NCBI RefSeq assembly: GCF_000280495.2
Contig: NZ_CP018017.1
Coordinates: forward strand, 226,109-290,108
DNA: 64,000 bases
Source: Kosakonia radicincitans DSM 16656
GTDB lineage: Bacteria; Pseudomonadota; Gammaproteobacteria; Enterobacterales; Enterobacteriaceae
Reading direction: 5' to 3'
Shown: positions 37,508-62,668 of the stretch, piece by piece
Layout of the letters: each line of letters begins with the position of its first letter
Numbering within the stretch: the stretch's first letter is position 1
The notes under the pieces: generated by a model
The model's input: the letters and a program-made list of their open reading frames with translations, nothing else
Databases searched by the model: none
Told to the model about the DNA's origin: nothing
Translations under genes and position numbers: made by a program

Positions 37508-37538
37508 TCAGTAAAGCACCGAGTCAGTAGCTGACGAA
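37508..37538 (-). promoter_or_regulatory. TTCGTCA-N16 promoter-like element
   Basis: Minus strand TTCGTCA, 16 bases, TTTACTGA; 56 bases before the 82-aa gene. Confidence 0.6.
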
Positions 37539-37552
37539 GGCAAAAAAGATAC

Positions 37553-37759
37553 TTTTCCACAGGACAGTTCCAATAAAGAGATCCCAAAGGTGCAACGGAG
37601 TACAAAAGAGATCCCTGTACGCTGCAAGCCGCATGGTTACTGGGCTCAAGGGCATTTTATGACAATGGTAATGACTTTTTTGACATTGGTAATGATTAAA
37701 ATGACATTGGTAGTGACTATTTCGACGTTAGTAGTGAGTATTTGTGACAATGGTAGTGA
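37553..37759 (+). repeat. Origin module, copy 1: DnaA-like box, leader, five 21-bp iterons
   Basis: TTTTCCACA (one change from the DnaA box TTATCCACA) at 37553, then AGTTCCAATAA and CAAAAGAGATCCC, then iterons of consensus TGACAWYGGTARTGA starting at 37660, 37681, 37702, 37723 and 37745. Same layout and spacing as 37976-38181. Confidence 0.85.
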
Positions 37760-37975
37760 GTTTTATTGTGTGATCTGAAGGTATAACTCTTAAAGAGTTT
37801 TGAGTATATTTCTATTATAATTCATATAGATACCATCTATCACCTGTATGATGAAACAAAATTATTAAAATCTTATCCACTGTTTTCTATACGCATTTTC
37901 CTTTCATGCCCGTACATATTTTCGACAATTTAGCTATTCGATGTTGATTTAACTCGAAGAGAGAATTTATCCCCA
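37760..37975 (+). other. A+T-rich stretch between iteron modules, probable oriV
   Basis: Very A+T-rich, with TTATCCACT at 37873-37881, one base from a DnaA box. Lying between two iteron blocks and upstream of rep, it is the best candidate for the unwinding region. Confidence 0.6.
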
Positions 37976-38181
37976 TTTTCCACAAGGTAGTTCCAATAAT
38001 TAGTACCTTACGAGTTCCCATAGATCACAAGAGATCCCCGCAGCTCGGAAGCCAGACGGCACAAGGCCTGGAAGCCAATCGGTGACAACGGTAGTGATTA
38101 TTTTGACATTGGTAGTGAGTTTTTTAACGGTAGTAGTGAGTTTTTTGACAACGGTAGTGATTGCGGCGACAATGGTAGTGA
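37976..38181 (+). repeat. Origin module, copy 2
   Basis: TTTTCCACA at 37976, AGTTCCAATAA, ACAAGAGATCCCC, then iterons at 38083, 38104, 38125, 38146 and 38167, exactly 21 bases apart. First iteron is 107 bases after the DnaA-like box, the same distance as in copy 1. Confidence 0.85.
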
Positions 38182-38401
38182 TTTTTTAAAGGATCTTTTT
38201 CACCGGAATTGATCCTTTGTTGATAAACTACGTATGTATTTGTTTTTATGTGAATTTCAGAGTTTTATATTTAGTCGTGGCGTTTTTTTAGCCTGGACTT
38301 ATGCACAATCTGAGATCGTCGCAGAGATCCCTTAAGTGACACTGAGGGCTTTGGGCGATAGTATTCAATAATCTGTTGATTAATACAGTCGATAAACCAC
38401 T

Positions 38402-39520
38402 ATGACCAATGAGAAAGATTCTGAGCAGCAAGGCCAGATGGTTACCAGGGCTTTCTCTGTAACAGAGAGAGAGACAGGTAAAGAAATTATTTTACGTCCT
38501 AATAGCAGCAGGACGGTTCAGTCTATCGCGCTCATGCGCCTTGGGTTGTTTGTGCCATCACCAAAAAGCGTTGGCCGTCAGAGTCGTGAATACAAAACTG
38601 TTGGCTTTGATGCCACGAAAGAACTACAGACACTTTCTTTGATGGAGAGCGAGGGTTTCACCAATATCTCGATCGTGGGTCAGCGCCTCGATATGTCTGT
38701 TGACTTCAAAACGTGGATGGGAATCATCCGAACGCTAGCTAACCATCCGATTGATAACGATAAGATCAGCCTCAAATTTACTGAGTTTCTGAAGCTCTGT
38801 AACCCTGAAAATTATCGTTCCTCTACCGCATCCCGTAAGCGTATCGACGCGTCGTTACGCAGGCTGGCATCCGTGATGTTGTCCTTCACCAGCACCCACT
38901 CGTCAAAGGTGTATACGACGCACCTGGTGCAGTCTGCCTTGCTTGACCCGGACTCTGATCAGGTAGAGCTACAGATAGACCCTAAGATATTCGAGTTGTA
39001 TCAGTACGACCACAAGGTTTTGATGCAGCTGAAGGCTATCAAGGAACTGGCGAAAAAAGAGAGCGCACAGGCGCTTTACACGTTCATTGAGTCACTTCCA
39101 CCAAATCCAATCCCGATCTCCTTAACGAGACTTAAGAACCGATTAAATCTTAAGACCCGTGCCAACAGCCAGAACGCCACAGTACGTAAGGCATTGGAGG
39201 AGCTGGCATCCATTGGTTACCTTCAGTACACCGAAGTAAAAAAAGATGGGAAGGTTTATTTCCAGATCCACAAACGCGATCCTGATTTGAATCTGAACAA
39301 TATCCAACCACCACCTGATGGTGATGGCGAGGGTGATGCTGATGAGGAGAACAATGGCACGTCGGGTAAAAATAATGGTGAGCCACTGGAAGGTGAATTG
39401 TGCCCACCAGATGAGCCCATTGATGGGGATGAAACGTTAACCATCCATGACTTAACAGCTGAAGAACTTCACTACATTCGCAGCCTTAGAAGCCAGAAAA
39501 AGAACAATCCCGCCAGCTAG
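38402..39520 (+). CDS. Replication initiator, Rep_3 type (second replicon)
   Basis: 372 aa. Two winged-helix domains shown by SIALMRLGLFVPSPKSVGRQ, FTEFLKLCNPENYRSSTASR, KESAQALYTFIESLPPNPI and LEELASIGYLQYTEV, then an acidic tail rich in Pro, Asp, Glu and Asn (from about residue 300). It is surrounded by TGACAAYGGTARTGA iterons on both sides, so it should bind them, start replication at 37.55-38.2 kb and be titrated by the 39.6-41.0 kb field. Resembles initiators of IncHI1B/pNDM-MAR-like replicons, by memory. Confidence 0.88.
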   Translation: MTNEKDSEQQGQMVTRAFSVTERETGKEIILRPNSSRTVQSIALMRLGLFVPSPKSVGRQSREYKTVGFDATKELQTLSLMESEGFTNISIVGQRLDMSVDFKTWMGIIRTLANHPIDNDKISLKFTEFLKLCNPENYRSSTASRKRIDASLRRLASVMLSFTSTHSSKVYTTHLVQSALLDPDSDQVELQIDPKIFELYQYDHKVLMQLKAIKELAKKESAQALYTFIESLPPNPIPISLTRLKNRLNLKTRANSQNATVRKALEELASIGYLQYTEVKKDGKVYFQIHKRDPDLNLNNIQPPPDGDGEGDADEENNGTSGKNNGEPLEGELCPPDEPIDGDETLTIHDLTAEELHYIRSLRSQKKNNPAS

Positions 39521-39597
39521 CATTCCCTCCGGGCTGTCAGATGACGGCCTGGAACCCTCCCTCCCTGCACATCGTCAGAGAATCCTGTTTAGCTTAA

Positions 39598-41038
39598 TGA
39601 CAACGGTATTGAGTGACGCGGTCACTACTGTTGTCATTGCGGGGTGACCACTCATGACAATGGTAATGAGACTAGATAGCTCACTACTGTTGTCATCATC
39701 GACATCTCTCCAGACCAGCTTCTCAGGGAAGGTCTTACACCGCTCACTACCATTGTCGGAATCGCCGGTACAGACAAATCGCTGATACCCATGACACCAT
39801 GACATCGGCAATGAGTCTTGGCAGCTCACTGCTGTTGTCATCATCGACAACTCTCCAGAGCAGCTTCTCGGAGAAGACCTCATACCGCTCACTACCATTG
39901 TCGGCATCGTCAGTACGGATTTATCGCTGATTCCCATGACACAATGACAACGGTAATGAGTGATTTGACTCACTACCGCTGTCATTTGCTCCCGGCGCAT
40001 TTGAATGACCACTGTATTGACTAAGAATACTCACTACCGTTGTCATTCATGATTCAGACCAAGTTCTTACTGCTCCACCAGCACAATGACAACGGAAATG
40101 AGTTCTGTTGGTCATTACCGTTGTCATATGCATTCCAGGTTAATCAGGCCTTTCAGGTAGCTATGGTAAGGATTCACTCGCCGTACTGTCTGCTCGTACT
40201 TGAGGGGCGGGATGAATGACCGTGGTAGTGACCGCGTCACTCCCTGTCGTTGTCGTTGTATGAATACATGGCCTGTCGGTGACAATGGAAATGAGTCCAA
40301 CCGCTGTCGTAGCTAACCTGATTGGTCAATGACAATGGATGTGATTTTTTCAAGTCTCTACCATTGTCATCGTTTCCAAGTACATTTCAGTGGGGTCGTT
40401 CCGGCGATGACGAATCAAGTGAGTGCGGGATCACAACCATTGTCGAGGCACAACTTGCCGGTTGTAGCCATACCGAACGCTGCGACAACGATAGTGATCT
40501 CGATCACTCATTACCGTTGTCACCAGGCGGATGGTGAAGCACCAGAATCACTACTGTTGTCATCTAACATTCTGCTACCCATGCAACCAATGACGATGGT
40601 AGTGAGCAACGCCGTCTACTTGCTGTATATAGGGATAGTATGATGAGCCATAACAATGGTAATGACTCACTACCATTGTCATAGTTCCTGTACTTGATTG
40701 CCGGTAACCAGACAAGGGTTAACCATTAAGTCACTACCGTTGTCATTACAGAAAGGTACTTTCCTTAATTGTCATTACCGTTGTCGACCATGCACCCTCT
40801 TACCAGTAGTAACGGTTCGTTAATTATGTGAAGGTGATCATTACCATTGTCACTGGTTACACTCCCGGCAGATTCAAAAATCGAGTGACAATGGATGTGA
40901 GTTCGATGCGCAGGACGGCATCTCAGTGCCGATGGCAATAGTTATGAGCTGACCAGACTGGTGACAACGATAATGAGCCAAGCATTGAAGCCCGTTTGCT
41001 ACGACAACGGTAATGATTAGGCCTCACTACCGTTGTCA
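39598..41038. repeat. Large iteron field after the second rep gene
   Basis: By eye about 34 copies of TGACAAYGGTARTGA or its inverse TCAYTACCRTTGTCA, allowing a few changes. Many form head-to-head pairs a few bases apart, for example at 39598/39622, 39946/39970 and 40506/40484. No gene is present in these 1.4 kb. Such fields usually titrate the initiator and set incompatibility and copy number. Confidence 0.9.
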
Positions 41039-41048
41039 GACACGATGC

Positions 41049-41768
41049 TTACTTCGGCCAGGTAAGTTCATCCCACCGGGATTTTAACCAGGCAGGGTTT
41101 ACAGGTTTTCTTGTCGGTAATATTGGCCGAGCTTCATACGCGATGAGATCGTCATCCTTAGCCAGGATAGTGGGGTGGAAATGGATTGTCAGGGTGCTGG
41201 GATTAATCACACACAGGCCGTTGTCGTATAACCGATGTATGTCTGCCCGAAGCCACAGGCCATTACTCCAGTGGTCAGAGCCCGCTTTATGATGCTCAAT
41301 CAGATGTGCTGCTTCTCCCCTGCATTTTGTCTTCACACCGGTGACGACACACCGCTCCATGCAGTTGAAGTATACCCTGTCGCTGAATTTCTTCTGATCA
41401 GGACGGGACATCGCACCGTACCGGCGATATCCAAAGCGTTTTGGTGAGACTTTCTCATCCAGGTCATCGTCAAATGAATCCTGACTCTCAGGCCGGAAGG
41501 TCTTCAGACGAACTTCCCAGCGAATGCCGTCACGTGCAAATTGCTGCCCTACGCGTGGGTCATCATCAGGCCAGATAGCTATTCCCTTAGCTTTAACAGC
41601 CAGCCGGAACTGGCGGGCATCAGCAGGGGTTCCCGTGCGGGTTAGTGTCATAAATTCATGGACACTCCGGTACTCCACTGGTTCTCCTGATGAGCCAGCA
41701 GGCCTGGCGAGAACCTTGTCTTTAATATCGCGGGCGAGTTTATCGGTTTGATTTTTATCTGAAGCCAT
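41049..41768 (-). CDS. HNH endonuclease-domain protein, short form
   Basis: 239 aa. HNH domain in the C-terminal half: CVVTGVKTKCRGEAAHLIEH and DHWSNGLWLRADIHRLYDN, closely matching the protein at 28887-30500. The long N-terminal region of that paralogue is replaced by about 125 residues with no recognised domain. The gene is bracketed by iterons at 41024 and 41839, so it belongs to the replicon region. It may act in replication, copy control or exclusion; this is inference. Confidence 0.78.
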   Translation of the reverse strand: MASDKNQTDKLARDIKDKVLARPAGSSGEPVEYRSVHEFMTLTRTGTPADARQFRLAVKAKGIAIWPDDDPRVGQQFARDGIRWEVRLKTFRPESQDSFDDDLDEKVSPKRFGYRRYGAMSRPDQKKFSDRVYFNCMERCVVTGVKTKCRGEAAHLIEHHKAGSDHWSNGLWLRADIHRLYDNGLCVINPSTLTIHFHPTILAKDDDLIAYEARPILPTRKPVNPAWLKSRWDELTWPK

Positions 41769-41838
41769 GTGAGCTATGCCATACCGGAAGAGGGAGGCAT
41801 GAATAATGGGCTGTTTTCCGAGGATAAGCCATAGATAC

Positions 41839-41878
41839 TCACTACTGTTGTCATTCTTGTCGATGACAACAGTAGTGA
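41839..41878. repeat. Head-to-head iteron pair upstream of the HNH gene
   Basis: TCACTACTGTTGTCA (41839) and TGACAACAGTAGTGA (41864) are exact inverses of one another 10 bases apart, 71 bases before the HNH start. Rep may therefore control the HNH gene. Confidence 0.8.
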
Positions 41879-41921
41879 GTCTGGTTGGTATGCATCATGT
41901 CGAAATCGGAGCACCGGTGAC

Positions 41922-42347
41922 TTATCGAATAGTCTGAACTGACTTGTAATGCGCTTGTGCAGGGTGGCCATAAGCCGTATTCGAGCGTGGAACTTCGAGG
42001 TGACCCGGCATCCATCCGGTCGTTTTTGCAACCCAGAAACAGCGTTCCTCACCGTCATCGGTAGTGACTCTAACACGACAACCTTCAAGCCCAATTAGTT
42101 GGGGGGAAAGATTACCGGGGCAGCATTTCCGGGAAGCGTTAGCATATACCTGCCCGCGCCGCATGAGTTCTGCACATTGTTCAAAATGTTCTTCTGTACC
42201 CAGTGCAGCTACTGGTGCTTCAACGTCCATCCAGTCAGCTACGGCGGTTGCTTTTGTATGCAGGAGATCAAATCCGTAGCTTGATAGAATAGAGCCACAT
42301 TTAAGAACATAGAGCTGCTGCTCTTTGTTAATGTTTTCGAGTTTCAT
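41922..42347 (-). CDS. Unknown 141-aa protein
   Basis: MKLENINKEQQLYVLKCGSI start with a strong AGGAG. Basic C-terminal half (RVRVTTDDGEERCFWVAKTT). No family recognised. A variant ATCGTCA-N16 element lies 75 bases upstream. Confidence 0.65.
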   Translation of the reverse strand: MKLENINKEQQLYVLKCGSILSSYGFDLLHTKATAVADWMDVEAPVAALGTEEHFEQCAELMRRGQVYANASRKCCPGNLSPQLIGLEGCRVRVTTDDGEERCFWVAKTTGWMPGHLEVPRSNTAYGHPAQAHYKSVQTIR

Positions 42348-42400
42348 AGCCGCTCCTGTTAGATTATCGTTGCCTGTTATTTAAAACATGGCTTTTCAGT

Positions 42401-42428
42401 AAATAAATAACCACACCTGCATGACGAT
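42401..42428 (-). promoter_or_regulatory. TTCGTCA-N16 element, variant
   Basis: Minus strand ATCGTCA, 16 bases, ATTTACTG; before the 141-aa gene. Confidence 0.4.
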
Positions 42429-42458
42429 TGGGACGCGATAATAAATAACGAGTATCTA

Positions 42459-42761
42459 TTAGCTTTGAGTGCCGAAAAAACCACAATCCATAAGTTGCTC
42501 ACCAACGGTATTGTCGAATAACATATCGTCTACTGAAACTTCATAGCTATTCTCTGATGAAAAATATCCAGCGTTATCATAGTCGACTTCTAAAGCGTCA
42601 CCATCAATAACCACAACCTCAGTATTAACGAAAAGATCATCAAGGTCTGAAATAACCTCAATATCTTCACTCTGTTCATCGGTAATGACAATGACAACCA
42701 TATCATCTTCAAACTCGGAAGCTGATACTTCATCATATCTTGCTGCAATTAAATCTGACAT
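42459..42761 (-). CDS. Extremely acidic 100-aa protein (possible DNA mimic)
   Basis: MSDLIAARYDEVSASEFEDD start, strong GGAGG. By count 28 of 100 residues are Asp or Glu, with one Arg and no Lys, so net charge is about -27. Acidic residues run through the whole chain rather than in a tail. Size and charge match DNA-mimic proteins such as Ocr, DMP19 and ArdA, but no sequence family is recognised. A TTCGTCA-type promoter lies 58 bases before the start, so it is probably expressed with the backbone set. An anti-restriction or nucleoid-protein-antagonist role is a guess from charge. Confidence 0.7.
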   Translation of the reverse strand: MSDLIAARYDEVSASEFEDDMVVIVITDEQSEDIEVISDLDDLFVNTEVVVIDGDALEVDYDNAGYFSSENSYEVSVDDMLFDNTVGEQLMDCGFFGTQS

Positions 42762-42796
42762 ATTAGCCTCCAGTTGAATGTGATTGCCTATATGTC

Positions 42797-42825
42797 TATA
42801 TTACCACCCACATGCTTGTGACGAA
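42797..42825 (-). promoter_or_regulatory. TTCGTCA-N15/16 promoter-like element
   Basis: Minus strand TTCGTCA, 15-16 bases, TAATAT; 58 bases before the acidic gene. Confidence 0.55.
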
Positions 42826-42853
42826 GTGATTTGGCTTATTTTTAATCGTTTAA

Positions 42854-42889
42854 AACAAAAAAGCCACCCCGGTTATTTCCTTGGTGGCT
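42854..42889 (-). terminator. Rho-independent terminator
   Basis: AGCCACC (42862-42868) and GGTGGCT (42883-42889); the minus strand continues into a T-run. Ends the gene at 42898-43443. Confidence 0.8.
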
Positions 42890-42897
42890 AATTGATA

Positions 42898-43443
42898 TTA
42901 TCCCTCGGCTAGTTCCAGCGCTTCCTTCTGGGAAGTGGCTTCACCGAACCAGACCAGATCATAATGCGTGAAGTCAGTAGATAACATGCTCCTGACCCGT
43001 TGTTCCTCTGTTGCCACAGTGCGGCTATAGACAGCTACACAGCGCTCTCTCTTCCCGCCCCGCAATGATGAAGGGCTGTTGAAAATCGCAAAACACATCG
43101 TTTCCGGCTTAACGTTAACCCCGCCCATTTTTTCAATGACGTAATCATAGGCAATTTTTTCAATGTCATAAAATGAGCCGTCAGATGACACCATTGAATA
43201 TTTCAGAACAGTACCCCCCAGAGCTCGCTTAATCTGGTGCTCCCTTTGCTGCTCGTTGTTCCAGCGAAAGGTTTGACGGCTGCTGGGGTGTCCTACTTTC
43301 TGTTCCGCTTTTGCACGTGGGCTATAGCCGTCAGCAATGAGTGAATCCATAAATTCACGCATTGATAAAATCTTACCGTTATGACGAATTTGTTTGGCTA
43401 GGAAGTTTTCAATACGTTTTTCGTTGGCTTTTTGAAGTGTCAT
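42898..43443 (-). CDS. Unknown 181-aa basic protein
   Basis: MTLQKANEKRIENFLAKQIR start. Basic N-terminal half with a possible HTH (ILSMREFMDSLIADGYSPRA); acidic C-terminus. Ribosome site is weak. A TTCGTCA-N16 promoter lies 57 bases upstream and a terminator follows, so it is a single-gene unit. Confidence 0.65.
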   Translation of the reverse strand: MTLQKANEKRIENFLAKQIRHNGKILSMREFMDSLIADGYSPRAKAEQKVGHPSSRQTFRWNNEQQREHQIKRALGGTVLKYSMVSSDGSFYDIEKIAYDYVIEKMGGVNVKPETMCFAIFNSPSSLRGGKRERCVAVYSRTVATEEQRVRSMLSTDFTHYDLVWFGEATSQKEALELAEG

Positions 43444-43476
43444 TTTTTCTGGCCTATGGTTCGTTGTCGTTATATT

Positions 43477-43506
43477 CAGTAAACCATAGGTCGTTCATGT
43501 GACGAA
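43477..43506 (-). promoter_or_regulatory. TTCGTCA-N16 promoter-like element
   Basis: Minus strand TTCGTCA, 16 bases, TTTACTG; 57 bases before the 181-aa gene. Confidence 0.6.
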
Positions 43507-43514
43507 ACGTGTAT

Positions 43515-44039
43515 TTATTCAACCCTATCTTCAATTATTTCGGTCATTAGAAAACGCAAATGATGATTATCGCCATCAGGATTGATTTTGTTTTTGTGAT
43601 AATCCATTACGCTTACATTTCTTGCTTGTTTGAAGTGGTAATTATCCATCGCGTTTACAGTTTTCTCATAGTAAGCTTCAGCTGAATAATCCAATAAACT
43701 TCGATAATAGGCAGCGACAACATCCCATCGACGATTTTCCGATGCTTTACATAACTCTTCGTCGTCACCTATTGCCGCTATGATATAACCATATATATAG
43801 CCAAGACATATGTCATGATTAATGGCTTTTCTGAATAATTCGGGAGAATATACCATAAGTATAAAGCCTAAAGACCTATGTATAAATACCCTGCTGTCAT
43901 GGACTATTTTTCTGTCATGTTCGATAGCTGATGGCGCGTTATCACCCTCAAGAGTAACAGGTTCAGGTATAGAGACTGACGGTTCCGCCCTCTCCTGTTT
44001 TGTTGCGCCAGCGAAAAACCTGCTTATACGTTCAAACAT
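43515..44039 (-). CDS. Unknown 174-aa protein
   Basis: Start set at MFERISRFFAGATKQERAEP (44039), with GGAGGA 8 bases before, rather than 14 codons upstream. Helical; contains SLGFILMVYSPELFRKAI and ICLGYIYGYIIAAIG, mildly hydrophobic but not clear membrane spans. No family recognised. Confidence 0.6.
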   Translation of the reverse strand: MFERISRFFAGATKQERAEPSVSIPEPVTLEGDNAPSAIEHDRKIVHDSRVFIHRSLGFILMVYSPELFRKAINHDICLGYIYGYIIAAIGDDEELCKASENRRWDVVAAYYRSLLDYSAEAYYEKTVNAMDNYHFKQARNVSVMDYHKNKINPDGDNHHLRFLMTEIIEDRVE

Positions 44040-44154
44040 AATGTGTCCTCCGCATTTTTGACTCAGTATAGCCAGGAGCACTGGCCCGTGTGCGGGAACG
44101 GAAGATGACCGTCGATATCCCGTTGTTACTTAACCAGCCTTACCGTACTATCAG

Positions 44155-44170
44155 GTGAATTATAGTTCAC
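44155..44170. promoter_or_regulatory. Near-palindromic operator
   Basis: GTGAATTATAGTTCAC, one mismatched pair, 12 bases before the 63-aa HTH gene. Confidence 0.6.
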
Positions 44171-44182
44171 GTGGATTAACCT

Positions 44183-44374
44183 ATGTACAAACCCACCAGC
44201 GATGAATTTAAAGCAGAGATGAAACGCAAAGGCTGGACGCGGCAGGCGCTGGCACAGCGCTGGGGCAAGTCCGAAAGATGGATAAGTAATATTTCAGGTA
44301 ATGAGGAACGCGAGCAGCATTGGAACGATGCGCTTGCAGGACTACCAGTATTAAAAAAAACCAAGAATAAGTGA
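44183..44374 (+). CDS. 63-aa HTH regulator
   Basis: MYKPTSDEFKAEMKRKGWTR start; HTH RQALAQRWGKSERWISNISG followed by NEEREQHWNDALAGLP. It is a stand-alone copy of the HTH module that ends the 235-aa protein at 15849-16556. The palindrome TGAACTATAGTTCA or close variants lie before it (44155), after it (44371) and before the next gene (44405), so it likely represses itself and its neighbour. Confidence 0.75.
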   Translation: MYKPTSDEFKAEMKRKGWTRQALAQRWGKSERWISNISGNEEREQHWNDALAGLPVLKKTKNK

Positions 44375-44418
44375 AGTATAGTTCCCTTTTTTATTGATTA
44401 AATGTGAACTATAGTTCA
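44371..44418. promoter_or_regulatory. Two operator copies before the 107-aa gene
   Basis: Imperfect GTGAAGTATAGTTCCC at 44371-44386 and perfect TGAACTATAGTTCA at 44405-44418. The latter is identical to the core at 16577-16590. Confidence 0.65.
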
Positions 44419-44465
44419 TGCTTTCTCGTGTGTTCGACTTCACTTCCCATCGAGGAGCAGCAGGC

Positions 44466-44789
44466 ATGAACGTAGATCAGCGGCAACGTATTGAGCAGGA
44501 AATTGCCCGGGCAGCAGCAACCGGGTTGATTGAAGCAGGATATAGCATCTCGGTATTCGACTCAGAAGAGATTGTGCTGAAGCGCTCTACGAACGTAGAA
44601 CGTATTGTTGAAGCCATGTTCTCTACTGATGAAGACTACTTCTATGCTTATCGCCCTGAAGAAACTGAACGTGCAGGTTACGTCCATTTTGTTTACGGCA
44701 ATGAGGGATGGAATGTTATCAGCGATAACAGCCTGTCGCTTGAACCGGCGCTTGAAGCCGCTACTGCTCTGTCTGAGTCTTATGCCTGA
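44466..44789 (+). CDS. Unknown 107-aa protein under the shared operator
   Basis: Start at MNVDQRQRIEQEIARAAATG with GAGGAG upstream; an earlier in-frame ATG at 44418 lies inside the operator. Acidic, alpha/beta. No family recognised. Its promoter region holds two copies of the HTH operator, so it is probably a target of the 63-aa regulator. Confidence 0.65.
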   Translation: MNVDQRQRIEQEIARAAATGLIEAGYSISVFDSEEIVLKRSTNVERIVEAMFSTDEDYFYAYRPEETERAGYVHFVYGNEGWNVISDNSLSLEPALEAATALSESYA

Positions 44790-48489: not shown

Positions 48490-48518
48490 ATTTTATCGTT
48501 GGGGGGGCAGGTGACGAA
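48490..48518 (-). promoter_or_regulatory. TTCGTCA-N16 promoter-like element
   Basis: Minus strand TTCGTCA, 16 bases, TAAAAT; before the 1125-aa gene. Confidence 0.55.
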
Positions 48519-54555: not shown

Positions 54556-54590
54556 GGTTCACCTGTTTATTTATTCGTTTTGTATATTTA

Positions 54591-54618
54591 TTTAAACACG
54601 GGCGTACCAGCTGACGAA
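54591..54618 (-). promoter_or_regulatory. TTCGTCA-N16 promoter-like element
   Basis: Minus strand TTCGTCA, 16 bases, TTAAATA; 57 bases before the 811-aa gene. Confidence 0.55.
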
Positions 54619-55045: not shown

Positions 55046-55075
55046 TATTAAATCACGAGGCATTCGGGTGACGAA
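55046..55075 (-). promoter_or_regulatory. TTCGTCA-N16 promoter-like element
   Basis: Minus strand TTCGTCA, 16 bases, TTAATAA; 59 bases before the 121-aa gene. Confidence 0.6.
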
Positions 55076-55372: not shown

Positions 55373-55402
55373 CATTATCTATCGGGCCAATCAGCTGGCG
55401 AA
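55373..55402 (-). promoter_or_regulatory. TTCGTCA-N16 element, variant
   Basis: Minus strand TTCGCCA, 17 bases, ATAATG; 59 bases before the small exported-protein gene. Confidence 0.4.
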
Positions 55403-55459
55403 ATTAAACAGTCGAAAACCTTTAATTAAATATCAGGATAAGGTCAGTAGCTTTTATGG

Positions 55460-56878
55460 TCAGTCGTCATCATGATACTCAGGGCCACCATAATTATCAA
55501 ATCGAGACCATTGACCATTAAATGTGAGACGTACTGTCCCTATAGGCCCGTTGCGCTGTTTACCTATGATAATTTCGGCTATACCTTTCATATCGCTATT
55601 TTCGTGATAGACCTCATCACGGTAAATAAACATGATCAGGTCAGCATCCTGCTCAATGGAGCCTGACTCTCGCAAATCTGAGTTTACCGGACGTTTATCG
55701 GCACGTTGTTCAAGCGAGCGGTTTAGTTGCGATAAAGCGATTACCGGTACATTCAGCTCTTTTGCCAGTGCTTTCAGAGATCGGGAGATTTCAGCAATTT
55801 CCAGAGTTCTGTTGTCAGATAACGACGGTACACGCATCAACTGAAGGTAGTCGATCATAATGAGGCTAAGCCCACCGTGTTCGCGGGACAATCGACGCGC
55901 CCGGGAGCGAACGTCCATAGGTGTTAGGCCAGAGCTGTCATCAATGTAAATGTTCTTTTTTTCCAGCAGCAGTCCCATTGTGCCGGATAACCGGGCCCAG
56001 TCCTCGTCATCGAGCTGTCCGGTTCGGATGCTGGTCTGGTTGACGCGTGATAGCGATGCCAGTGAGCGCATCATGAGCTGTTCCGTAGGCATTTCCAGGC
56101 TGAAAATCATGACGGGCTTATCGTTTGTCAGCGATACATTCTCGCAGATGTTCATTGCAAACGTAGTTTTCCCCATTGAGGGTCTGGCAGCGATAATAAT
56201 CAAATCCGAGGGCTGTAGACCGGCTGTCTTCTTGTTCACGTCCACGTAGCCGGTATCAACTCCAGTGACCCCGTCATGGGGACGCTGGAACAAGGCTTCA
56301 ATCTTGGTAACGGTTCTGTCCAGAATGCTGCTGATATTTTCCGGCCCACCGCTTTTATTTCCCCTTTGCTCTGCAATCTGGAAAATCCGGCTTTCTGCAA
56401 GATCAAGCAATTCGTCACTTGTCCTACCTTCCGGGTTGTAACCGGCCTCGGTTATTTCGTTGGCAACTTTTATCATTTCCCTGATTACGGCACGTTCCCT
56501 GACGATCTGCGCGTAGGCAATTATATTTGCCGCACTGGGCGTATTTTTTGACAGTTCTGCCAGATAGGCGAAACCGCCGAGACTATCCAGCTTACCTTCT
56601 CCCTCGTTTTCGATGTGCTCAGCGAGGGTTATCAAATCAATCGGGAATTGATTCGCAACGAGCGATCTCATTGCAGAGAAAATTGAGCGATGCGGTCGAG
56701 AACTAAAATCCTGCTCACTAACGATTTCTGCCACATCATCCCATCTCTGGTTTTCAAGCATTAACCCGCCCAGCACGGACTGTTCCGCTTCTATCGATTG
56801 CGGAGGGGTTTTTAAGCTGTATTCAGCTGTTTGCTTTGTCTCACCTGTTTCGGTAAACGAGATGTCCGCCATAGTCAT
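55460..56878 (-). CDS. dnaB: DnaB-type replicative helicase, plasmid-encoded
   Basis: 472 aa from MTMADISFTETGETKQTAEY (56878), chosen because the upstream codons overlap the previous gene and GAGGCC precedes this start. N-terminal DnaB domain (SIEAEQSVLGGLML; GGFAYLAELSKNTPSAANI), then a RecA-like motor: Walker A RPSMGKTT near 232-239, MIFSLEMPTEQLMMRSLA, Walker B LIMIDYLQLM and ESGSIEQDADLIMFIYRD. Complete by length against E. coli DnaB (471). It probably loads at the plasmid origin. It follows 56887 by 8 bases in one operon. Confidence 0.92.
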   Translation of the reverse strand: MTMADISFTETGETKQTAEYSLKTPPQSIEAEQSVLGGLMLENQRWDDVAEIVSEQDFSSRPHRSIFSAMRSLVANQFPIDLITLAEHIENEGEGKLDSLGGFAYLAELSKNTPSAANIIAYAQIVRERAVIREMIKVANEITEAGYNPEGRTSDELLDLAESRIFQIAEQRGNKSGGPENISSILDRTVTKIEALFQRPHDGVTGVDTGYVDVNKKTAGLQPSDLIIIAARPSMGKTTFAMNICENVSLTNDKPVMIFSLEMPTEQLMMRSLASLSRVNQTSIRTGQLDDEDWARLSGTMGLLLEKKNIYIDDSSGLTPMDVRSRARRLSREHGGLSLIMIDYLQLMRVPSLSDNRTLEIAEISRSLKALAKELNVPVIALSQLNRSLEQRADKRPVNSDLRESGSIEQDADLIMFIYRDEVYHENSDMKGIAEIIIGKQRNGPIGTVRLTFNGQWSRFDNYGGPEYHDDD

Positions 56879-56886
56879 AAGTGGCC

Positions 56887-57255
56887 TCAGAGGTTCTGGA
56901 ATAGCTTTTGTTTTTGTAATTGTCGTGCGCATTCCGATACCAACTCCGGGTAACTGGATGCTATTGCCTTTAGAATTGCTTCAGAGAGCTCATTCGCTTC
57001 ATCAGAGCGGCCCACCAGCCTCAGCTCGGCTACTGTACCGGGGTCGCAGTTTGTCAGGTTGGCGCGGGCGTAATTGACTTTCAGCCGCGCCAGAAATTCC
57101 ACCCCGGGCTTGCGCTTCACCGCGTGGACAGAAAGTGTTTTTCGGCAAAATCGACCAGCTGTACGGCGTTCGTGATGCTCCAGAGCTTTTGCTTCCAGCT
57201 CCTGCCCGGCGATAACGGTCACATAGAGGCTACTAATCAACGCCGATACATTCAT
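56887..57255 (-). CDS. Unknown 122-aa protein in the dnaB operon
   Basis: MNVSALISSLYVTVIAGQEL start overlapping the end of the previous gene by 4 bases (ATGA). Helical and basic. No family recognised. Its tight coupling to dnaB hints at a helicase-loading or origin role, which is inference. Confidence 0.6.
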   Translation of the reverse strand: MNVSALISSLYVTVIAGQELEAKALEHHERRTAGRFCRKTLSVHAVKRKPGVEFLARLKVNYARANLTNCDPGTVAELRLVGRSDEANELSEAILKAIASSYPELVSECARQLQKQKLFQNL

Positions 57256-57827
57256 GCAGCAATCCCCCGCTTATTAGCCAGCGCAACGGTATCCAGAAGT
57301 ACGAAGTCATCAAGCAGGTTCAGTCCTGCGGGCGTCTTCTGATCACGCCATAGCGCATCCAGTACATCGGTGTCTGGCATTCCCGTTGGGATTAGGCTTA
57401 GAAGTTCGGATAACGTATCTACCTGTAGCATGTGGCAGATAGAAGCCAGCATTATTCCCTCTGACGCTTTATCCATAAGACCACCGATCAGAATCTGAAT
57501 TTCCGGGGTCATAACAAAATGCTCATAATTGGATTTATTGAATCGGCACTGAATGAGTTTATAACCCTTGAACTCAGTAATTAACTCCTGAAGGAATACA
57601 TGCAGCATATCTGGTTTTGTTTTTCTAATAGCCGCTACCTGCATTGCAATTTTTAAAATGCCATCATCAACTCTTTCGTGCGGGCATCCTGCGGAGGAAT
57701 AAATACTTTTTGCCTTTTCGAGCCAATTTTGCAGCTCGATATAATTAGTCTGAATATTCAACGCGACCCCCATTGCTATCCAAAAAAGTCTATAACCCTG
57801 ATATTTTAATGCGCTCCTGTCTATCAT
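57252..57827 (-). CDS. Unknown 191-aa protein in the dnaB operon
   Basis: MIDRSALKYQGYRLFWIAMG start; an internal ATG at MGVALNIQ is an alternative because neither has a strong site. Helical; ends VALANKRGIAA. Overlaps the next gene by 4 bases. No family recognised. Confidence 0.6.
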   Translation of the reverse strand: MIDRSALKYQGYRLFWIAMGVALNIQTNYIELQNWLEKAKSIYSSAGCPHERVDDGILKIAMQVAAIRKTKPDMLHVFLQELITEFKGYKLIQCRFNKSNYEHFVMTPEIQILIGGLMDKASEGIMLASICHMLQVDTLSELLSLIPTGMPDTDVLDALWRDQKTPAGLNLLDDFVLLDTVALANKRGIAA

Positions 57828-57946
57828 CGAAAAATTTAAGGCAGCAAAATGCGGCCATTTATATGTGCAAAAATATGAGCCGGTTTATCCGGCCCATCAG
57901 AATGAAAAGGAATTTTATGCAGGTCTGTTAAAGACCTGCTGGGAGG

Positions 57947-59122
57947 TTAGTACACCGGGTGCAGCTGAGTCTCTTCAGTTTCACCATTCTGCTGGTTAGC
58001 GCCATCGGTATCGGCATCAGTCGCATCGTCAGCACCGCCGTTGTTTTCAGCACTATCACCGTCGTTGTCACCATTAGCTTCAGCATCTTCTGCCTGTTTT
58101 GCTGATTCCAGTTCAGCCAGGGTAGCCATCAGAGTACGGGCCATTTCAGGAGTCAGGCGTAAGACGACTTCTTCCGGCACGGTTTCCGTAATTTCGATCT
58201 GATTTTCATGCTCACCTTCCGGCTGCGGCGGGATCTGGTCGCGCAGCTGGCTCAGGGTTGGCAACAGGCTGTCGAAGGTTTTACGGATAACTTTCGGTTT
58301 CAGGCCAGTCTTTTTCTTGGAACTCACGAATTTGGCAGTGACGCGGGTTTTCCCAGCTCCTTCTGCCTTTTTCAGGGATTCCATCAGGACTTCATACGGG
58401 TCGCGGTCAGTACCCTGACATTCGTTAATAACGTCAACGGCAACGTCACCAGATACCTTATCTTCTTTCACCAGCATCTTGATGCTGAAGTCAGCGTTTG
58501 CCAGCACGATACTGCGGCGAACGGTGACCAGAGAGACACCCAGACGCTGAGCAATCGACTCAATGGTGTGACCCCAGCCAATCAGGCGCTTGAAGCCTTC
58601 AGCGCGTTCCACCATCTTCAACTGAAGGGAGTTGGCGCTCTCGATCATGTTGTAGACTTCTTCGTCCTTGCCGCCTTCAAATTCCTCGACGGTGATTTTC
58701 TGGAAGCTCGCGCCCTCAGCAATCGCCATCATCAGGCCAGCAAAACGGTGGTGGCCATCAATGATTTTCAGGCGGGTTACGCCTTCCACTACTACTGGTT
58801 TAACGCGGATGACAGGCACTGACTGAGGACGTTCCAGATAAGCGTGTTTGAACATTACCGCACGGTCATAATTTACGTCGCGGAGGTTCAGTCCCTCTTC
58901 CACAAACAACCAGTACGGGCTCACCGCAAAGACGTTGTTACGCCCGATATCGGCTTCTTCGAACTGTTCCGTATTGCCGCTTTTACGCGCTTTGGTTACG
59001 AAATCGCTCAGTGCTCGGAGTGATGATGGCGCTTTGTCTAAGCTGCGCATCAGTACCGCAGCGCCTTCCAGATTTTCCAGGGTACGGCTTTGTTCGAAGA
59101 TAGCTTTAACGTCGGTGTTCAT
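57947..59122 (-). CDS. parB: ParB/Spo0J-family partition protein
   Basis: 391 aa. ParB N-terminal nucleotide-binding domain with DGHHRFAG (residues 122-129, in place of the usual GERR box) and NMIESANSLQLKMVERAEGF; HTH TIESIAQRLGVSLVTVRRSI near 190-212; acidic C-terminal tail rich in Asp, Glu, Asn and Gly. It should load on a parS site and work with a ParA-type ATPase; no large ParA gene of its own is in the window. It has a TTCGTCA-N16 promoter 78 bases upstream. This is a second partition system besides the ParA/RHH pair at 14.5 kb. Confidence 0.88.
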   Translation of the reverse strand: MNTDVKAIFEQSRTLENLEGAAVLMRSLDKAPSSLRALSDFVTKARKSGNTEQFEEADIGRNNVFAVSPYWLFVEEGLNLRDVNYDRAVMFKHAYLERPQSVPVIRVKPVVVEGVTRLKIIDGHHRFAGLMMAIAEGASFQKITVEEFEGGKDEEVYNMIESANSLQLKMVERAEGFKRLIGWGHTIESIAQRLGVSLVTVRRSIVLANADFSIKMLVKEDKVSGDVAVDVINECQGTDRDPYEVLMESLKKAEGAGKTRVTAKFVSSKKKTGLKPKVIRKTFDSLLPTLSQLRDQIPPQPEGEHENQIEITETVPEEVVLRLTPEMARTLMATLAELESAKQAEDAEANGDNDGDSAENNGGADDATDADTDGANQQNGETEETQLHPVY

Positions 59123-59177
59123 GGTGTTTCTCCGCTTTAGTTATTGTGTCGCGAGGTTCGTTGCTTGCTGTAAATCC

Positions 59178-59206
59178 AGTTAAACACACACCAAACAGGT
59201 GACGAA
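59178..59206 (-). promoter_or_regulatory. TTCGTCA-N16 promoter-like element
   Basis: Minus strand TTCGTCA, 16 bases, TTAACTG; 78 bases before parB. Confidence 0.55.
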
Positions 59207-59245
59207 GCGTATTTGGGGACAAAATGTCTCTTTTTTTTCGGGTAC

Positions 59246-59279
59246 ATAAAAAAGCCCTGTAATCCAGTGATTACAAGGC
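59246..59279 (-). terminator. Rho-independent terminator
   Basis: Stem GCCTTGTAATC/GATTACAGGGC (59254-59279, one bulge) with a T-run on the minus strand. Ends the gene run 59281-61056. Confidence 0.8.
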
Positions 59280-59280
59280 C

Positions 59281-59967
59281 TTAGCTCGTAATGATGACAT
59301 CAAGATGGCGACGTTTTTCGATTTTGACCGCATTTTTCATCAAAATTGTCATCACTTCATTTAGTTTTGAACTCTCCCCTTCCTCATATGAACCCCAAGG
59401 TAGGAATGGAGTAGGACTATTGATATTGAATGCAACGCCCGTAGGGCATCGCCATGCAGTTGGCTTCTTTGAGTCAGGTTCCCATTTCACCAGGAGTATT
59501 GGCGCGTTACAGTCGATGTCATCGATGGCTGGTATAGCCTCATATAAAAACACTCCCGCATCATCCCCACTGAAGAAAGCTAGATGCTTATACGCGCTGG
59601 CAAAAGAGACTACGCCCGCGAAAAGGCCCACAACGATGAGGTTAAGGTTCGATGTTTTGTGACGGATACGTTTTTGCTTCAGGCGAACCATTGTCAGGGC
59701 TGACAAGAAGATAGCCACCAGCCCCCCGGCTCCTGCGAACCAAACGGAATTGATTTGCAGGAAGGAAATCAAATCACGATGCTCTCTCTGGTTTTCTTCA
59801 AGCATCAACGACACAAAAGTTGTTGTTACTGGCATTGATATCAGGAATATCGTGATCATCACTATTGCAAAAGTCTGTATGGAATAGCGGTCTCTATTTT
59901 CCTCTATAACAGAATTAAAGGATAACAGATAAACAAATGTAAATAATAAAATGGAAAGAAGGTACAT
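59281..59967 (-). CDS. Multi-pass membrane protein of unknown function
   Basis: 228 aa with four hydrophobic helices (YLLSILLFTFVYLLSF, FAIVMITIFLISMPVTTTFV, WFAGAGGLVAIFLSALTMV, NLIVVGLFAGVVSFASAY) and a soluble C-terminal domain. No family recognised. It follows the metalloprotease gene by 20 bases, so they are one transcript. Confidence 0.65.
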   Translation of the reverse strand: MYLLSILLFTFVYLLSFNSVIEENRDRYSIQTFAIVMITIFLISMPVTTTFVSLMLEENQREHRDLISFLQINSVWFAGAGGLVAIFLSALTMVRLKQKRIRHKTSNLNLIVVGLFAGVVSFASAYKHLAFFSGDDAGVFLYEAIPAIDDIDCNAPILLVKWEPDSKKPTAWRCPTGVAFNINSPTPFLPWGSYEEGESSKLNEVMTILMKNAVKIEKRRHLDVIITS

Positions 59968-59987
59968 TGGTTATGCCTTTTTTTGGG

Positions 59988-60749
59988 TTATCGCTGAATT
60001 CTTTTATTTAATTCTGTTCTGAAAAATGCATACAAGAACTGCCACCCATCACCATGAGCCGTTCTGAAATCTTTTTCAGGGAGTACCGGAAAACCAAATT
60101 TAAAATTATCTTTTCCAGTGTGGCGCTGGCAAAAGTGCGCAAGCTCATGTGCCACTACGCCTTTGATATGATCCAGTTGATTGATTGAATAAAATGCTCC
60201 GATGTCCTTACGCTGCTCTATATGTGCGTACTCATGGTAGCGATAGCGCGGTGTATCACTGTCAGGATAAATGGACGATGGTGAAATAGTGATTGAGCTC
60301 CTGCCGCCCCATGAATGTTTGGCACTCCAGTTGACCCGAACTTCAGGCGCAGGGCCGGTGAAACCATATGCCTGTCTATAGAGGTGCAGAAGATACCCTG
60401 AATACAGAAAAACAACTTTCTCCGCCGTCATAACGCGAGAAACGCCATAGCGAGCAACTGCCCTATCTCTGGCTGTCAGAACGGGGGTTTTTACCCGTGG
60501 GGAGAATAATTTTGTTGGGCTGAATAGCCAGACTTCTGAATCGTCATCAGGCATATCCAGTATCACCTGAATTTCTTCAGGCGACCCAACTCGTTGATGC
60601 CACCTTTCAAGATTATCGCCCACTTCATTCAGGCTGATTAAATCATCGGCATTCTCGTAGAATAACCAGATCAGCGTTCCTCGTGGGAGTGCTTTCTCAG
60701 CTGTAATATGTGAGAGGATAATTTGACGTGGTGTCATCTTATTCGCCAC
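59988..60749 (-). CDS. SprT-like zinc metalloprotease
   Basis: 253 aa. The C-terminal third holds VVAHELAHFCQRH (HExxH at 201-205) and a third zinc ligand in TAHGDGWQFL (His232), the SprT/Wss1 pattern. Such proteases can degrade proteins crosslinked to DNA or act as regulators. The N-terminal 150 residues match nothing I know. It overlaps the previous gene by 11 bases. A role at the plasmid origin or in conjugation is inference only. Confidence 0.75.
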   Translation of the reverse strand: MANKMTPRQIILSHITAEKALPRGTLIWLFYENADDLISLNEVGDNLERWHQRVGSPEEIQVILDMPDDDSEVWLFSPTKLFSPRVKTPVLTARDRAVARYGVSRVMTAEKVVFLYSGYLLHLYRQAYGFTGPAPEVRVNWSAKHSWGGRSSITISPSSIYPDSDTPRYRYHEYAHIEQRKDIGAFYSINQLDHIKGVVAHELAHFCQRHTGKDNFKFGFPVLPEKDFRTAHGDGWQFLYAFFRTELNKRIQR

Positions 60750-61056
60750 AGTTCCCGGATGCTTCTATCAGTTTTATTTTTGTTGCTTCTGCCGCCTGCA
60801 TTTTTTGTTTCATCTTCTCAATGCTAGCGGTCACACGGCGGGCGCACCATTGATACGCTGCCTGACGTGATTCGAAAAACTCATAATCCGCGTGCAGGTA
60901 AACTGATGTGCCGTAGGAGACGGACATACGGTAACCCTTCGGCGTTTCATTGATGACTTCCCGTTCTTCTACACAGTTTTCAAACTCAGGGACATAATCC
61001 ACGAATCGACGACGCAGAATGCAAAACAGCACCTTTATTTGGTTTTCATCAGTCAT
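60739..61056 (-). CDS. Unknown 105-aa protein
   Basis: MTDENQIKVLFCILRRRFVD start with AGGATA. Alpha/beta; C-terminal helix rich in Lys and Gln. Co-transcribed with the metalloprotease. In the ancestral order it followed the 57-aa gene now split by the IS2-like element. Confidence 0.6.
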   Translation of the reverse strand: MTDENQIKVLFCILRRRFVDYVPEFENCVEEREVINETPKGYRMSVSYGTSVYLHADYEFFESRQAAYQWCARRVTASIEKMKQKMQAAEATKIKLIEASGNCGE

Positions 61057-61184
61057 TTGTTATCCTCGTTATTCTTCTTATTTATCATCAACCTTTCTTA
61101 ATTGTCGATGCTGAATACGGCGGAGCGGATTTCACGCTTGGCCTGCTGACGGGCGCGGTGTTTGCTTACACGATGGATTGGCCC

Positions 61185-62090
61185 CTATATTTCCATACAC
61201 TTTTTATCACTTAACCCATTACTGGTTCGCCGCCGCAGATATTCCCGTGGCGAACGATACCCCAGTGCACTATGCGGATGCCATTCGTTGTAATGTTCGA
61301 AGGCCTCCGCAAGGTTCTTTACCGCTGTTAACCCGTCGGGTTTCGGCATGATGCTGATGTAATCGCGCTTCATCGTTTTCACGAAGCTCTCTGCCATCCC
61401 GTTGCTTTCCGGGCTACGTACCGCCGTATGTTTAGGCTCCAGTCCTACCATTCTGGCGAACTGACGCGTCTGATAAGAACGGTAGGCTGAACCGTTGTCT
61501 GTCAGCCACTCAACTGGGGATGTCGGCAGGCTGTTACCGAAGCGACGCTCCACGGCACCCAGCATGACGTCCTGCACGGTTTCACTGTCATATCCACCGT
61601 TACTGGCCGCCCAGTAAAGTGCCTCGCGATCGCAACAGTCCAGAGCGAACGTGACCCGCAGTTTTTCACCGTTATCACAGCTGAACTCGAAGCCGTCAGA
61701 GCACCACCGCTGGTTACTTTCTCCAACGGCCACTTTCCCTGTATGCGCCCGCTTCGATGGCGGTATTTCCGGTTTACGCTCAAGCAGCAGCGCATTCTGA
61801 CGCATGATGCGGTATACGCGTTTGGCATTGATCACCGCCATGTCGTCAGTTTCTGATTGTCTGCGCAGCAGTGCCCATACCCGACGATAACCATAGGTGG
61901 GCAGATCGCCGATAACGGTATGGATACGGGCCAGCGCGTCAGTATCATCAGGCTTGCGCTTGCACCGACGATCCTGCCAGTCCTTCGACCGACGGGCCAT
62001 GGCATGCAGTTGCGCACGTGAGACCCGGAGGCAACGACTGACAAGGCTTATTCGCCATCCTCCGGCAACAAGGGCACGTGCGCTATCCAC
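61185..62090 (-). CDS. IS2-like OrfB, transposase catalytic part
   Basis: 301 aa from [20 protein letters not shown]. rve integrase core with the DDE residues in [25 protein letters not shown] and [14 protein letters not shown]. It is normally made as an OrfAB fusion by a -1 shift at a slippery A-run with G near 62088-62095. No stops; the transposase looks intact. Confidence 0.9.
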
Positions 62091-62413
62091 TTTTTTTGTC
62101 GGCCATATTCAACGGCTTCTTTTAGCAGCTCGTTTTCCATGGTTTTCTTGCCCAACAGGCGCTGCAGCTCTTTAATTTGCTTCATCGCAGATGCCAGCTC
62201 CGACGCGGGCACAACCTGTTCTCCTGCGGCAACGGCTGTAAGGCTGCCTTCCTGATACTGCTTACGCCACAGGAACAGCTGACTGGCAGCAACGCCATGC
62301 TGACGGGCGACCAGCGACACGGTCATTCCGGGCTCAAAACTCTGCTGAACAAGGGCGATTTTTTCCTGAACACTTCGCCGTCTGCGCTTCTCTGGACCTA
62401 AAATATCAATCAT
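62048..62413 (-). CDS. IS2-like OrfA
   Basis: 121 aa from [20 protein letters not shown] (62413), the usual OrfA start; the frame extends 21 codons upstream without support. [23 protein letters not shown] and a leucine-zipper-like segment [23 protein letters not shown]-binding and repressor part of the element. Confidence 0.9.
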
Positions 62414-62639
62414 TCGGACTCCAACGACTAGTCTAAAAACTAGTATTAAGACTATCACTAACTTAAGTGATACCAACTGTCTGGAGATTCAGGGGGCCAG
62501 TCTACACGAAGAGATCTATCGTATGCATTGTTTTTACGATAGCCACGCGAGCGGCACAGTGAACAAGTGCAGCCTTCTACTGAATAGAAAATCCCAAACG
62601 GTTTCATAAGTATCACCTTTAAGCTTGATAATAATGTTT

Positions 62640-62668
62640 ATCATAGCTGGAGTTATTCAGGTGACGAA
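62640..62668 (-). promoter_or_regulatory. TTCGTCA-N16 promoter-like element
   Basis: Minus strand TTCGTCA, 16 bases, TATGAT (the best -10 of the set); 55 bases before the split 57-aa gene. Confidence 0.65.

Follow-up and report, generated by a model that had tools for sequence, protein, structure and literature searches.

Several described plasmids place a set of their promoters under one plasmid-encoded regulator. According to the passages cited here, the promoters of ardB, ardK and repA in the IncN plasmids pKM101/R46 share an upstream word that is bound by the self-controlling plasmid repressor ArdK (PMC6289460), the clustered and variable establishment operons of p576, a Bacillus plasmid of the pLS20 family, have related promoters under one plasmid repressor, Reg (PMC8708921), and in the IncP-1 plasmid RK2, plasmid promoters are co-regulated by KorA and KorB, the latter a ParB-family protein (PMC11790492). 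Here we analyse a 64,000-base stretch of Kosakonia radicincitans DSM 16656 (the window), in which the word TTCGTCA, followed at a near-fixed distance by a -10-like hexamer, stands before many genes. The window comprises bases 226109–290108, the final 64 kb, of a plasmid contig of 290,108 bases (C2), one of three contigs in a 6.12 Mb assembly whose chromosome is 5.82 Mb. We consider it probable that the element marks a plasmid-wide regulon of about 38 sigma70 extended -10 promoters, in which the -35 box is replaced by a lineage-specific 11-base block read by a plasmid-encoded factor, likelier a repressor, with an orphan ParB protein encoded in the window (ParB2) as the leading candidate.

The backbone of C2 is of the pKPC_CAV1321-244 plasmid group, in which many backbone genes are annotated as 'hypothetical'. 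The gene for an 811-residue PAPS-reductase is found with at least 99% identity in 99 plasmid records, and a 6.2 kb backbone stretch matches 107 records at 99% or more, with at least 80% of the stretch held in 98 records. The annotated group member used for the position tests was NZ_CP011611.1 (pKPC_CAV1321-244, hereafter CAV), whose gene content includes a MobH relaxase, mobI, AcaB-family and FlhC-family regulators, ParM/StbA, ParA/ParB and an extra orphan ParB. The CAV1321 plasmid carries KPC-2, so members of the group can bear carbapenemase genes.

One plasmid regulator serving many promoters is a known kind of control (ArdK-CUP, Reg-EGeRS2, KorA/KorB). As with ArdK, one word precedes several plasmid promoters, but the CUP sites number three and have a 13-base consensus, whereas here about 38 promoters carry an 11-base block at -35. 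Likewise, clades of the family of p576 use different regulatory sequences (PMC8708921, in the part cited); Reg, however, is predicted to be a ribbon-helix-helix protein whose operators flank the promoter on one or both sides, and here the block lies at -35. ParB2 shares with KorB the ParB fold with its helix-turn-helix, whereas the OB sites of KorB are described, in the part of PMC11790492 cited, as lying 4–10 bp or 45 to >1000 bp upstream and acting with KorA, and here a non-palindromic word lies inside the promoter. CAV also encodes AcaB- and FlhC-family proteins, as in the AcaCD/SetCD regulon of IncC, SXT and Rts1, but that regulon covers tra operons (setC and setD of Rts1 are required for transfer, as deletion showed in the cited part of PMC10838148), whereas the genes behind TTCGTCA are mostly non-tra. 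As far as we have seen, it is new that the set numbers some 38 promoters, that a block stands in for the -35 box and that the words are lineage-specific across several MOBH groups. No description of the element was found in the open-access literature of PubMed Central among the matches listed, which is not proof of absence.

Position and anatomy of the element

The starts of CAV were annotated without knowledge of the motif. On this plasmid, 27 of the 81 copies of TTCGTCA lie 50–85 bases before an annotated start, and none lies nearer than 50. The corresponding number in 2000 circular shifts was 1.85 on average and 7 at most; in the same position test, 419 permuted words averaged 0.73 and reached at most 9, the latter for the overlapping word ACTTCGT. 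An earlier note on this DNA, made from the letters alone, had proposed the element and named enrichment before starts as the sign that would support it, and this enrichment is clearly present. On both strands of the window, TTCGTCA occurs 21 times against 10.24 expected (standard deviation 3.20), a number reached by none of 100 dinucleotide shuffles, so that about half of the copies in the window are background.

Around the 27 CAV sites, the -10 pattern xAxxxT was seen at a gap of 16 in 14 sites, 15 in five and 22 in six, and in 0–3 sites at each other gap from 10 to 23, in line with the spacing of nearly always 16 that had been claimed. TGn precedes the -10 at gap 16 in 11 of the 27 sites, above every other gap. 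Scored places (54) were then curated plasmid-wide by eye with regard to a nearby start; 38 promoters were kept, two of them lacking a good annotated start (CAV 186490 and 216538), and 16 were dropped, mostly because they were intragenic or far from a start. All 38 are unchanged in C2 over 50-base stretches, and 10 lie in the window. The restriction to the minus strand that the earlier note had described holds within the window, whereas plasmid-wide 36 sites are on the minus strand and two (C2 42582 and 105190) on the other.

The consensus of the 38 sites is TTCGTCAcCtG-N5-cccGTGn-TATAaT, the base frequencies being partly selected since the curation used nearby starts. Each base of TTCGTCA is present at 92–100%. 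The block ends in c/g, C, t and G, this G at 82%; after five unconstrained positions come three c, then G (63%), t or g, and G (74%), and a single unconstrained position separates these from a hexamer like TATAaT, whose final T reaches 89%. The left block of 11 bases occupies the -35 place, a distance of 17 bases separating TTCGTC from the -10. TGn with a TATAAT-like hexamer makes the right block an extended -10, a description that holds for the sites as a class, not for each site. A palindromic dyad across the spacer (CAC..G-N5-C..GTG), seen in CAV, was dropped and is read as an extended -10, because the IncT plasmid described below keeps only the TG.

TTCGTC is not a usual sigma70 -35 box, as the earlier note had said (it matches TTGACA at 2 of 6 bases), and the corresponding words of related plasmids (TTCGAC, TTATTAG) are no better by eye. 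The lack of a good sigma70 -35 box there in any lineage, together with the near-fixed gap of 15–16 to the -10, would suit an activator, i.e. a plasmid factor (ParB2 or another) that, once bound to TTCGTCA, brings in RNA polymerase by way of sigma70 region 4 in class-II style and so makes up for the missing -35 box; we see in this a serious possibility and a close second, albeit one that we do not expect to prevail. Extended -10 promoters can work without a -35 box, and the plasmid-wide regulators compared above (ArdK, Reg and KorB with KorA) are repressors in the passages cited, and for these two reasons a repressor is favoured. Such a plasmid-encoded transcription factor, bound to the block TTCGTCAsCtG at the -35 place of sigma70 promoters with the extended -10 GTGnTATAAT, would set all the genes together. 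In the established cell it would keep the expression of upkeep and establishment genes low and self-limited, and its absence from a new recipient would permit a burst of expression after entry.

The eight copies listed in the earlier note were all found in place, on the minus strand, and the distances were borne out, with ATG at +61 to +65 from the first T in six, at +84 for the copy at 59200 and at +130 for that at 48512. Read along the minus strand, TTCGTCACCTG followed by TATGAT (62640..62668) precedes a 57-residue open reading frame (ORF; start 62607), and TTCGTCACCTG followed by GTGtTTAACT (59178..59206) precedes the orphan parB gene, parB2 (57947..59122, minus strand), which encodes the 391-residue ParB/KorB/Noc-fold protein that we infer as candidate regulator. 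At 55047..55075, TTCGTCACCCG with GTGaTTTAAT stands before a 121-residue ORF (start 55010), its leader holding GTAAACAAACCG; an 8-bp inverted repeat at this promoter, CCTCGTGA / TCACGAGG, reaches the ribosome-binding site. The PAPS-reductase (DndC-like) gene at 54555-52120 is preceded by TTCGTCAGCTG with GTGtTTAAAT (54590..54618), so that both genes singled out earlier, parB and the DndC-like gene, do carry the element. TTCGTCACCTG with TAAAAT (48490..48518) lies 130 bases before a gene for an 1125-residue protein (48388-45011), TTCGTCACATG with TTTACT (43478..43506) before a 181-residue ORF (start 43443), with a 9-bp inverted repeat, CCTATGGTT / AACCATAGG, TTCGTCACAAG with a gap of 15 to TAATAT (42797..42825) before a 100-residue ORF (start 42761), and TTCGTCAGCTA with TTTACT (37510..37538) before an 82-residue ORF (start 37476), its leader holding GTAAACAAAACG.

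Two variants had also been proposed. That at 55396 (TTCGCCA-N16-GATAAT, ATG at +65) fits, as TTCGCCAGCTG followed by GATAAT (55374..55402, minus strand) before a 66-residue ORF (start 55337), whereas that at 42422 (ATCGTCA, with TATTTA at the -10 place) is unconvincing. A further diverged variant, absent from the earlier list, is TTTGTCGGCTG-N12-TAAATT at 35425 (35397..35425, minus strand), 47 bases before the annotated start of a 161-residue ORF (35378-34893) adjoining repB. The original observation is confirmed and extends further than was claimed.

Words at the -35 place in related plasmids

The relatives compared were a Proteus plasmid (NZ_CP085482), a Moellerella plasmid (NZ_CP120975, pXJ22MSE2-1), an IncT plasmid (NZ_CP098042), an IncHI1 plasmid (NZ_MZ773210), an IncHI2 plasmid (NZ_MW264504) and an IncC plasmid; the hosts of the Proteus, Moellerella and IncT (Providencia) plasmids are all Morganellaceae. 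Every 7-mer lying between -80 and -42 of a predicted start was counted de novo, with no word chosen beforehand. TTCGTCA came out on top in CAV (23 vs 1.37 expected) and C2 (23 vs 1.68); its one-base shift TCGTCAG was top in the Proteus and Moellerella plasmids, where TTCGTCA itself was found 17 times vs 1.37 and 14 times vs 1.28. The top word was TTCGACC in IncT (12 vs 0.67) and TTATTAG in IncHI1 (8 vs 0.41), and TTATTAG occurred 6 times vs 0.52 in IncHI2, below other top words that we take to be IS26 sequence. The P values are uncorrected for the 16,384 words; those of IncT (9e-12) and IncHI1 (1e-8) survive, and that of IncHI2 (2e-5) stands only as a repeat of IncHI1. A matrix of the three words against eight plasmids showed each word enriched only in its own lineage, and none of TTCGTCA, TTCGACC and TTATTAG was enriched in the IncC plasmid. 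The commonest gap to the -10 was 16 in CAV (16/28 sites), Proteus (16/26), Moellerella (16/28) and IncT (14/20), some of the counted sites, among those with one mismatch and unusual spacing, being chance matches. A block at near-fixed spacing thus stands before annotated genes and is conserved over divergent plasmids, and in IncT and IncHI a different word occupies its position.

The exchange of words can be followed at single genes. Orthologs of the 1125-residue protein carry the local word in all six plasmids, as TTCGTCACCTG in CAV, TTCGTCAGCTG in Proteus, TTCGTCACCGG in Moellerella, TTCGACC in IncT, TTATTTG in IncHI1 and TTATTAG in IncHI2 (where the ortholog is a short ORF), about 60–67 bases before the start and 130 in CAV. 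For parB2 the local word is present in four of the six, the Proteus, Moellerella and IncT orthologs among them, with element and -10 aligned across the four. The DUF4942 gene has the word in 6/6 plasmids (in IncHI as CTATTAG, some copies lying just after the mechanical start), and gene 114331 has it in four of the five plasmids shown, IncC aside. The element also precedes the Proteus and Moellerella orthologs of the PAPS-reductase gene, and TTCGACC the IncT ortholog of the 82-residue ORF. For the 161-residue ORF beside repB, no clear copy was found before the Moellerella and IncT orthologs, and Proteus has TTTCGTCACGGG near the mechanical start; dam has the word in IncHI2 and none in CAV, Proteus or Moellerella. 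In a Pseudomonas aeruginosa plasmid, that of LYT4, the weak word TTGGGAT (6 vs 0.47) before parB2-like, PAPS-reductase and other genes is perhaps another lineage word. Arsenophonus words were also noted, and these stem from what look like duplicated gene arrays.

A word that changes over many promoters implies a reader that changes with it, and because the words differ among plasmids that share host families, this reader is probably plasmid-borne; the comparison points to a regulator that evolves together with its site. The -10 is sigma70-like and no regulator has been pinned down, both of which would be in keeping with a host protein, or ordinary RNA polymerase, reading the block, the similarity being that of duplicated promoters. 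We think this improbable, since plasmids from one host family differ in their word, several orthologous promoters have switched word together, and spacers and flanks vary from copy to copy and are therefore not explained by recent duplication. A looser pattern is moreover about 10 times as dense on C2, where it matches 19 times over 0.29 Mb, as on the chromosome, where 38 matches spread over 5.82 Mb; with a reversed control pattern giving 49 matches in the whole genome (a figure not split by contig), the total of 57 is near chance and it is the density on C2 that stands out. The common factor, perhaps plasmid-encoded, that the earlier note had suggested is thus probable from the word changes between plasmids and from the density on C2.

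Candidate regulators

ParB2 is the leading candidate for the plasmid-encoded factor, and its own gene stands behind the element. It has an HTH_ParB match in Pfam (E 8.5e-5), and its AlphaFold2 model, of moderate quality (mean pLDDT 72.4, pTM 0.58), retrieved Noc, KorB and ParB structures in Foldseek with best E values of 7e-7 to 1e-6 and query-normalised TM values of only 0.2–0.4; the search with the predicted fold confirms the family of ParB2, not its function. An iterated profile (hidden Markov model) search found homologs in all six plasmids, those of IncHI being 26% and 23% identical, and among the non-transfer proteins with homologs in all six we judge ParB2 the most plausible transcription factor. 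Its recognition helix reads SLVTVRRS in CAV, SGVTVRRS in Proteus and NIQTVRRS in IncT, and is unlike these in IncHI. These differences run parallel to the words TTCGTCA, TTCGTCA, TTCGACC and TTATTAG, which is suggestive and no more, since a similar correspondence would be expected of any co-inherited gene.

Pfam scans for regulators had 50 entries, i.e. 49 different CAV proteins, one having been scanned twice. Apart from ParB2, the regulator-like proteins were FlhC, AcaB (below cut-off), PerC (87731), a SarA/Rot-like protein (95090, below cut-off), HTH_35 (80222) and FCD (112057). For ParB2, an NCBIfam scan of 10 proteins gave only weak matches of ParB/Noc type. PerC, HTH_35 and FCD were rejected as they had no IncT or IncHI match in the iterated search. 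The SarA/Rot-like protein, which is small, was rejected because its homologs, found in Proteus, Moellerella and IncT, extend to the IncC plasmid, which has no element; alongside its gene (CAV 95090, minus strand), between two divergent genes, lies the palindrome-like AATCATATGGGATATGATTAAGG. RepB, a Tus-like protein and Dam, which are DNA-binding and widespread, were set aside on their known roles. By eye, a single ribbon-helix-helix-like candidate was seen (CAV 176827-177357, minus strand); its gene is part of the stbA operon and is not preceded by the element, and no domain was found in it by Pfam. This protein is a homolog of the Rts1 transfer repressor orf249/setR, encoded directly after the StbA/ParM gene, and its ribbon-helix-helix-like N-terminus makes it a possible ParR-type partner.

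The two boxes are spaced as for a sigma factor, and an alternative sigma factor of the plasmid could in principle read them as TTCGTCA/TATAAT. We give this hardly any credence: sigma-70 region 2 was found in none of four plasmids, and the region 4 matches, present in all four at E up to 1, included one above cut-off (in the Proteus plasmid), the best in CAV being the ParB2 helix-turn-helix itself, below cut-off.

Several results weigh against a regulon read by ParB2. ParB proteins are known to bind palindromes, and the frequencies of the 38 sites show by eye no dyad beyond the CAsCTG core, so that we do not file the element as a KorB-type operator. Among the matches of the iterated ParB2 search was also a ParB from the IncC plasmid, which lacks such a word, and the presence of a ParB relative is therefore not specific; the Proteus plasmid pHJ90-1 has a 35% ParB2-like protein and no comparable word. 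(The ParB2 relative of the LYT4 plasmid is 34% identical.) Both IncHI parB2 homologs lack the IncHI word before their own gene. The commonest gap is 18, not 16, in IncHI1 (10/17) and IncHI2 (9/13), for which reason the IncHI word may be an independent invention. The word precedes dinG in IncT, with variants in Proteus and Moellerella and none in CAV, and the 121-residue gene in CAV and IncHI, with none in Proteus or Moellerella. On CAV, 54 of the 81 TTCGTCA copies lie outside the promoter position, and a relaxed matrix scan marked 52 places vs 6–15 in five simulated plasmids, so that weak matches are partly noise.

Genes behind the element and neighbouring repeats

The genes preceded by sites include parB2, the PAPS-reductase gene, that of the 1125-residue protein (which had no match among PDB sequences at E up to 1), ssb, dnaN, the DUF4942 gene and many small unknowns; they are of upkeep and establishment types. 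A Lar-type restriction alleviation gene lies near element-bearing genes. Also preceded by the element is a gene adjoining that of FlhC, whose 256-residue product has a lipoprotein-like start by eye and a weak similarity by profile (E 5e-3) to a protein of IncC, the latter being in our view, from its place between traN and acaB, the surface-exclusion protein Sfx (PMC11493245, in the part cited). The element is missing from most tra operons examined, where other repeats were read by eye as AcaCD-like boxes, and the AcaCD/FlhC regulon was rejected as the source of the element on this ground; before traK there is a weaker match, TTCGTTA in CAV and TTCGTCACC in the Proteus plasmid.

The presence of ssb, dnaN and the nearby Lar-type gene, mostly on one strand, resembles leading-region genes, and the sites could accordingly be promoters of single-stranded DNA (Frpo/ssi type), where a hairpin of the folded strand imitates a double-stranded -35 and -10, for early expression at conjugative entry. 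In 20 of the 38 sites the mean folding z was -0.95 and -0.91 on the two strands, vs 0.01 in 30 control stretches, and inverted repeats of at least 7 bp were found in 5/37 sites (permuted mean 0.78, maximum 4 in 300). Against this, z was -2 or lower in just 5 of 20 coding-strand sites, so that hairpins do not characterize the set; in Proteus, Moellerella, IncT and IncHI, the repeats did not exceed those of permuted pairs; what is conserved is a short word of linear form; and the Frpo study, in the passages cited, searched for TTGACA/TATAAT. We therefore consider such promoters very improbable.

Of the 38 sites, 7 also have in their leader a further common sequence, GTAAACAAAACG(AA) with at most one mismatch, about the predicted transcript start; the window copies are at 37503-37492 and 55044-55033 on the minus strand, in leaders of element promoters. 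It also occurs as GTAAACAAAACGGATG near some tra genes, with related copies after mobI. In 10 of 37 sites of the CAV lineage, the spacer/-10 region is complementary over 6–9 bases to downstream sequence around the ribosome site, the letters differing from site to site (window 55075-55005 and 43506-43445; CAV 187542, 188593 and 190459). Permuted pairs gave a mean of 3.2 and a maximum of 8 in 300, and at least 7 bases were complementary in 5/37 (permuted maximum 4); however, the mean length of 4.49 was under the permuted maximum of 4.57, a tighter repeat on 22 CAV sites gave 5 vs a permuted mean of 1.6 and maximum of 8, and no excess was seen in the Proteus, Moellerella, IncT or IncHI sites. Such pairing could mask the ribosome site in transcripts that read through from upstream but not in the one that starts at the promoter itself, and may thus serve for insulation.

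The repB region lies between two AAAAGTATCTTTT palindromes (window 35528-35540 and 37544-37556; 0.03 expected). The IncHI plasmids hold AAAAGTnACTTTT 25 and 23 times, and the IncHI1 ParB is 73% identical to the CAV ParB; the palindromes may therefore be centromere sites of ParB. The Moellerella plasmid has the palindrome TTTCGCATGCGAAA 14 times, and the IncC plasmid has stem-loop-like intergenic sequences, TAACCC...GGG with varying letters, before many consecutive genes.

A single word would define which 'hypothetical' genes of these plasmids are run together, and hence which may serve upkeep or establishment after entry. The lineage-specific words suggest in every plasmid a master regulator of its own, matched to the word, and they make the co-evolution of regulator and site testable. 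In its widest form, the proposal would be that in several MOBH lineages (CAV1321, Proteus/Moellerella, IncT and IncHI) much of the non-transfer backbone forms one regulon, with a -35 word peculiar to the lineage and an orphan ParB-family protein as its reader, word and reader drifting together; we put this forward as a speculation that is rather unlikely to hold in full. If it did, each lineage would have an orthogonal promoter language, a ParB-family protein serving as promoter factor at a -35 site would be acting in a new way, and a gene newly captured by the plasmid would be marked by the word as adopted into the regulon.

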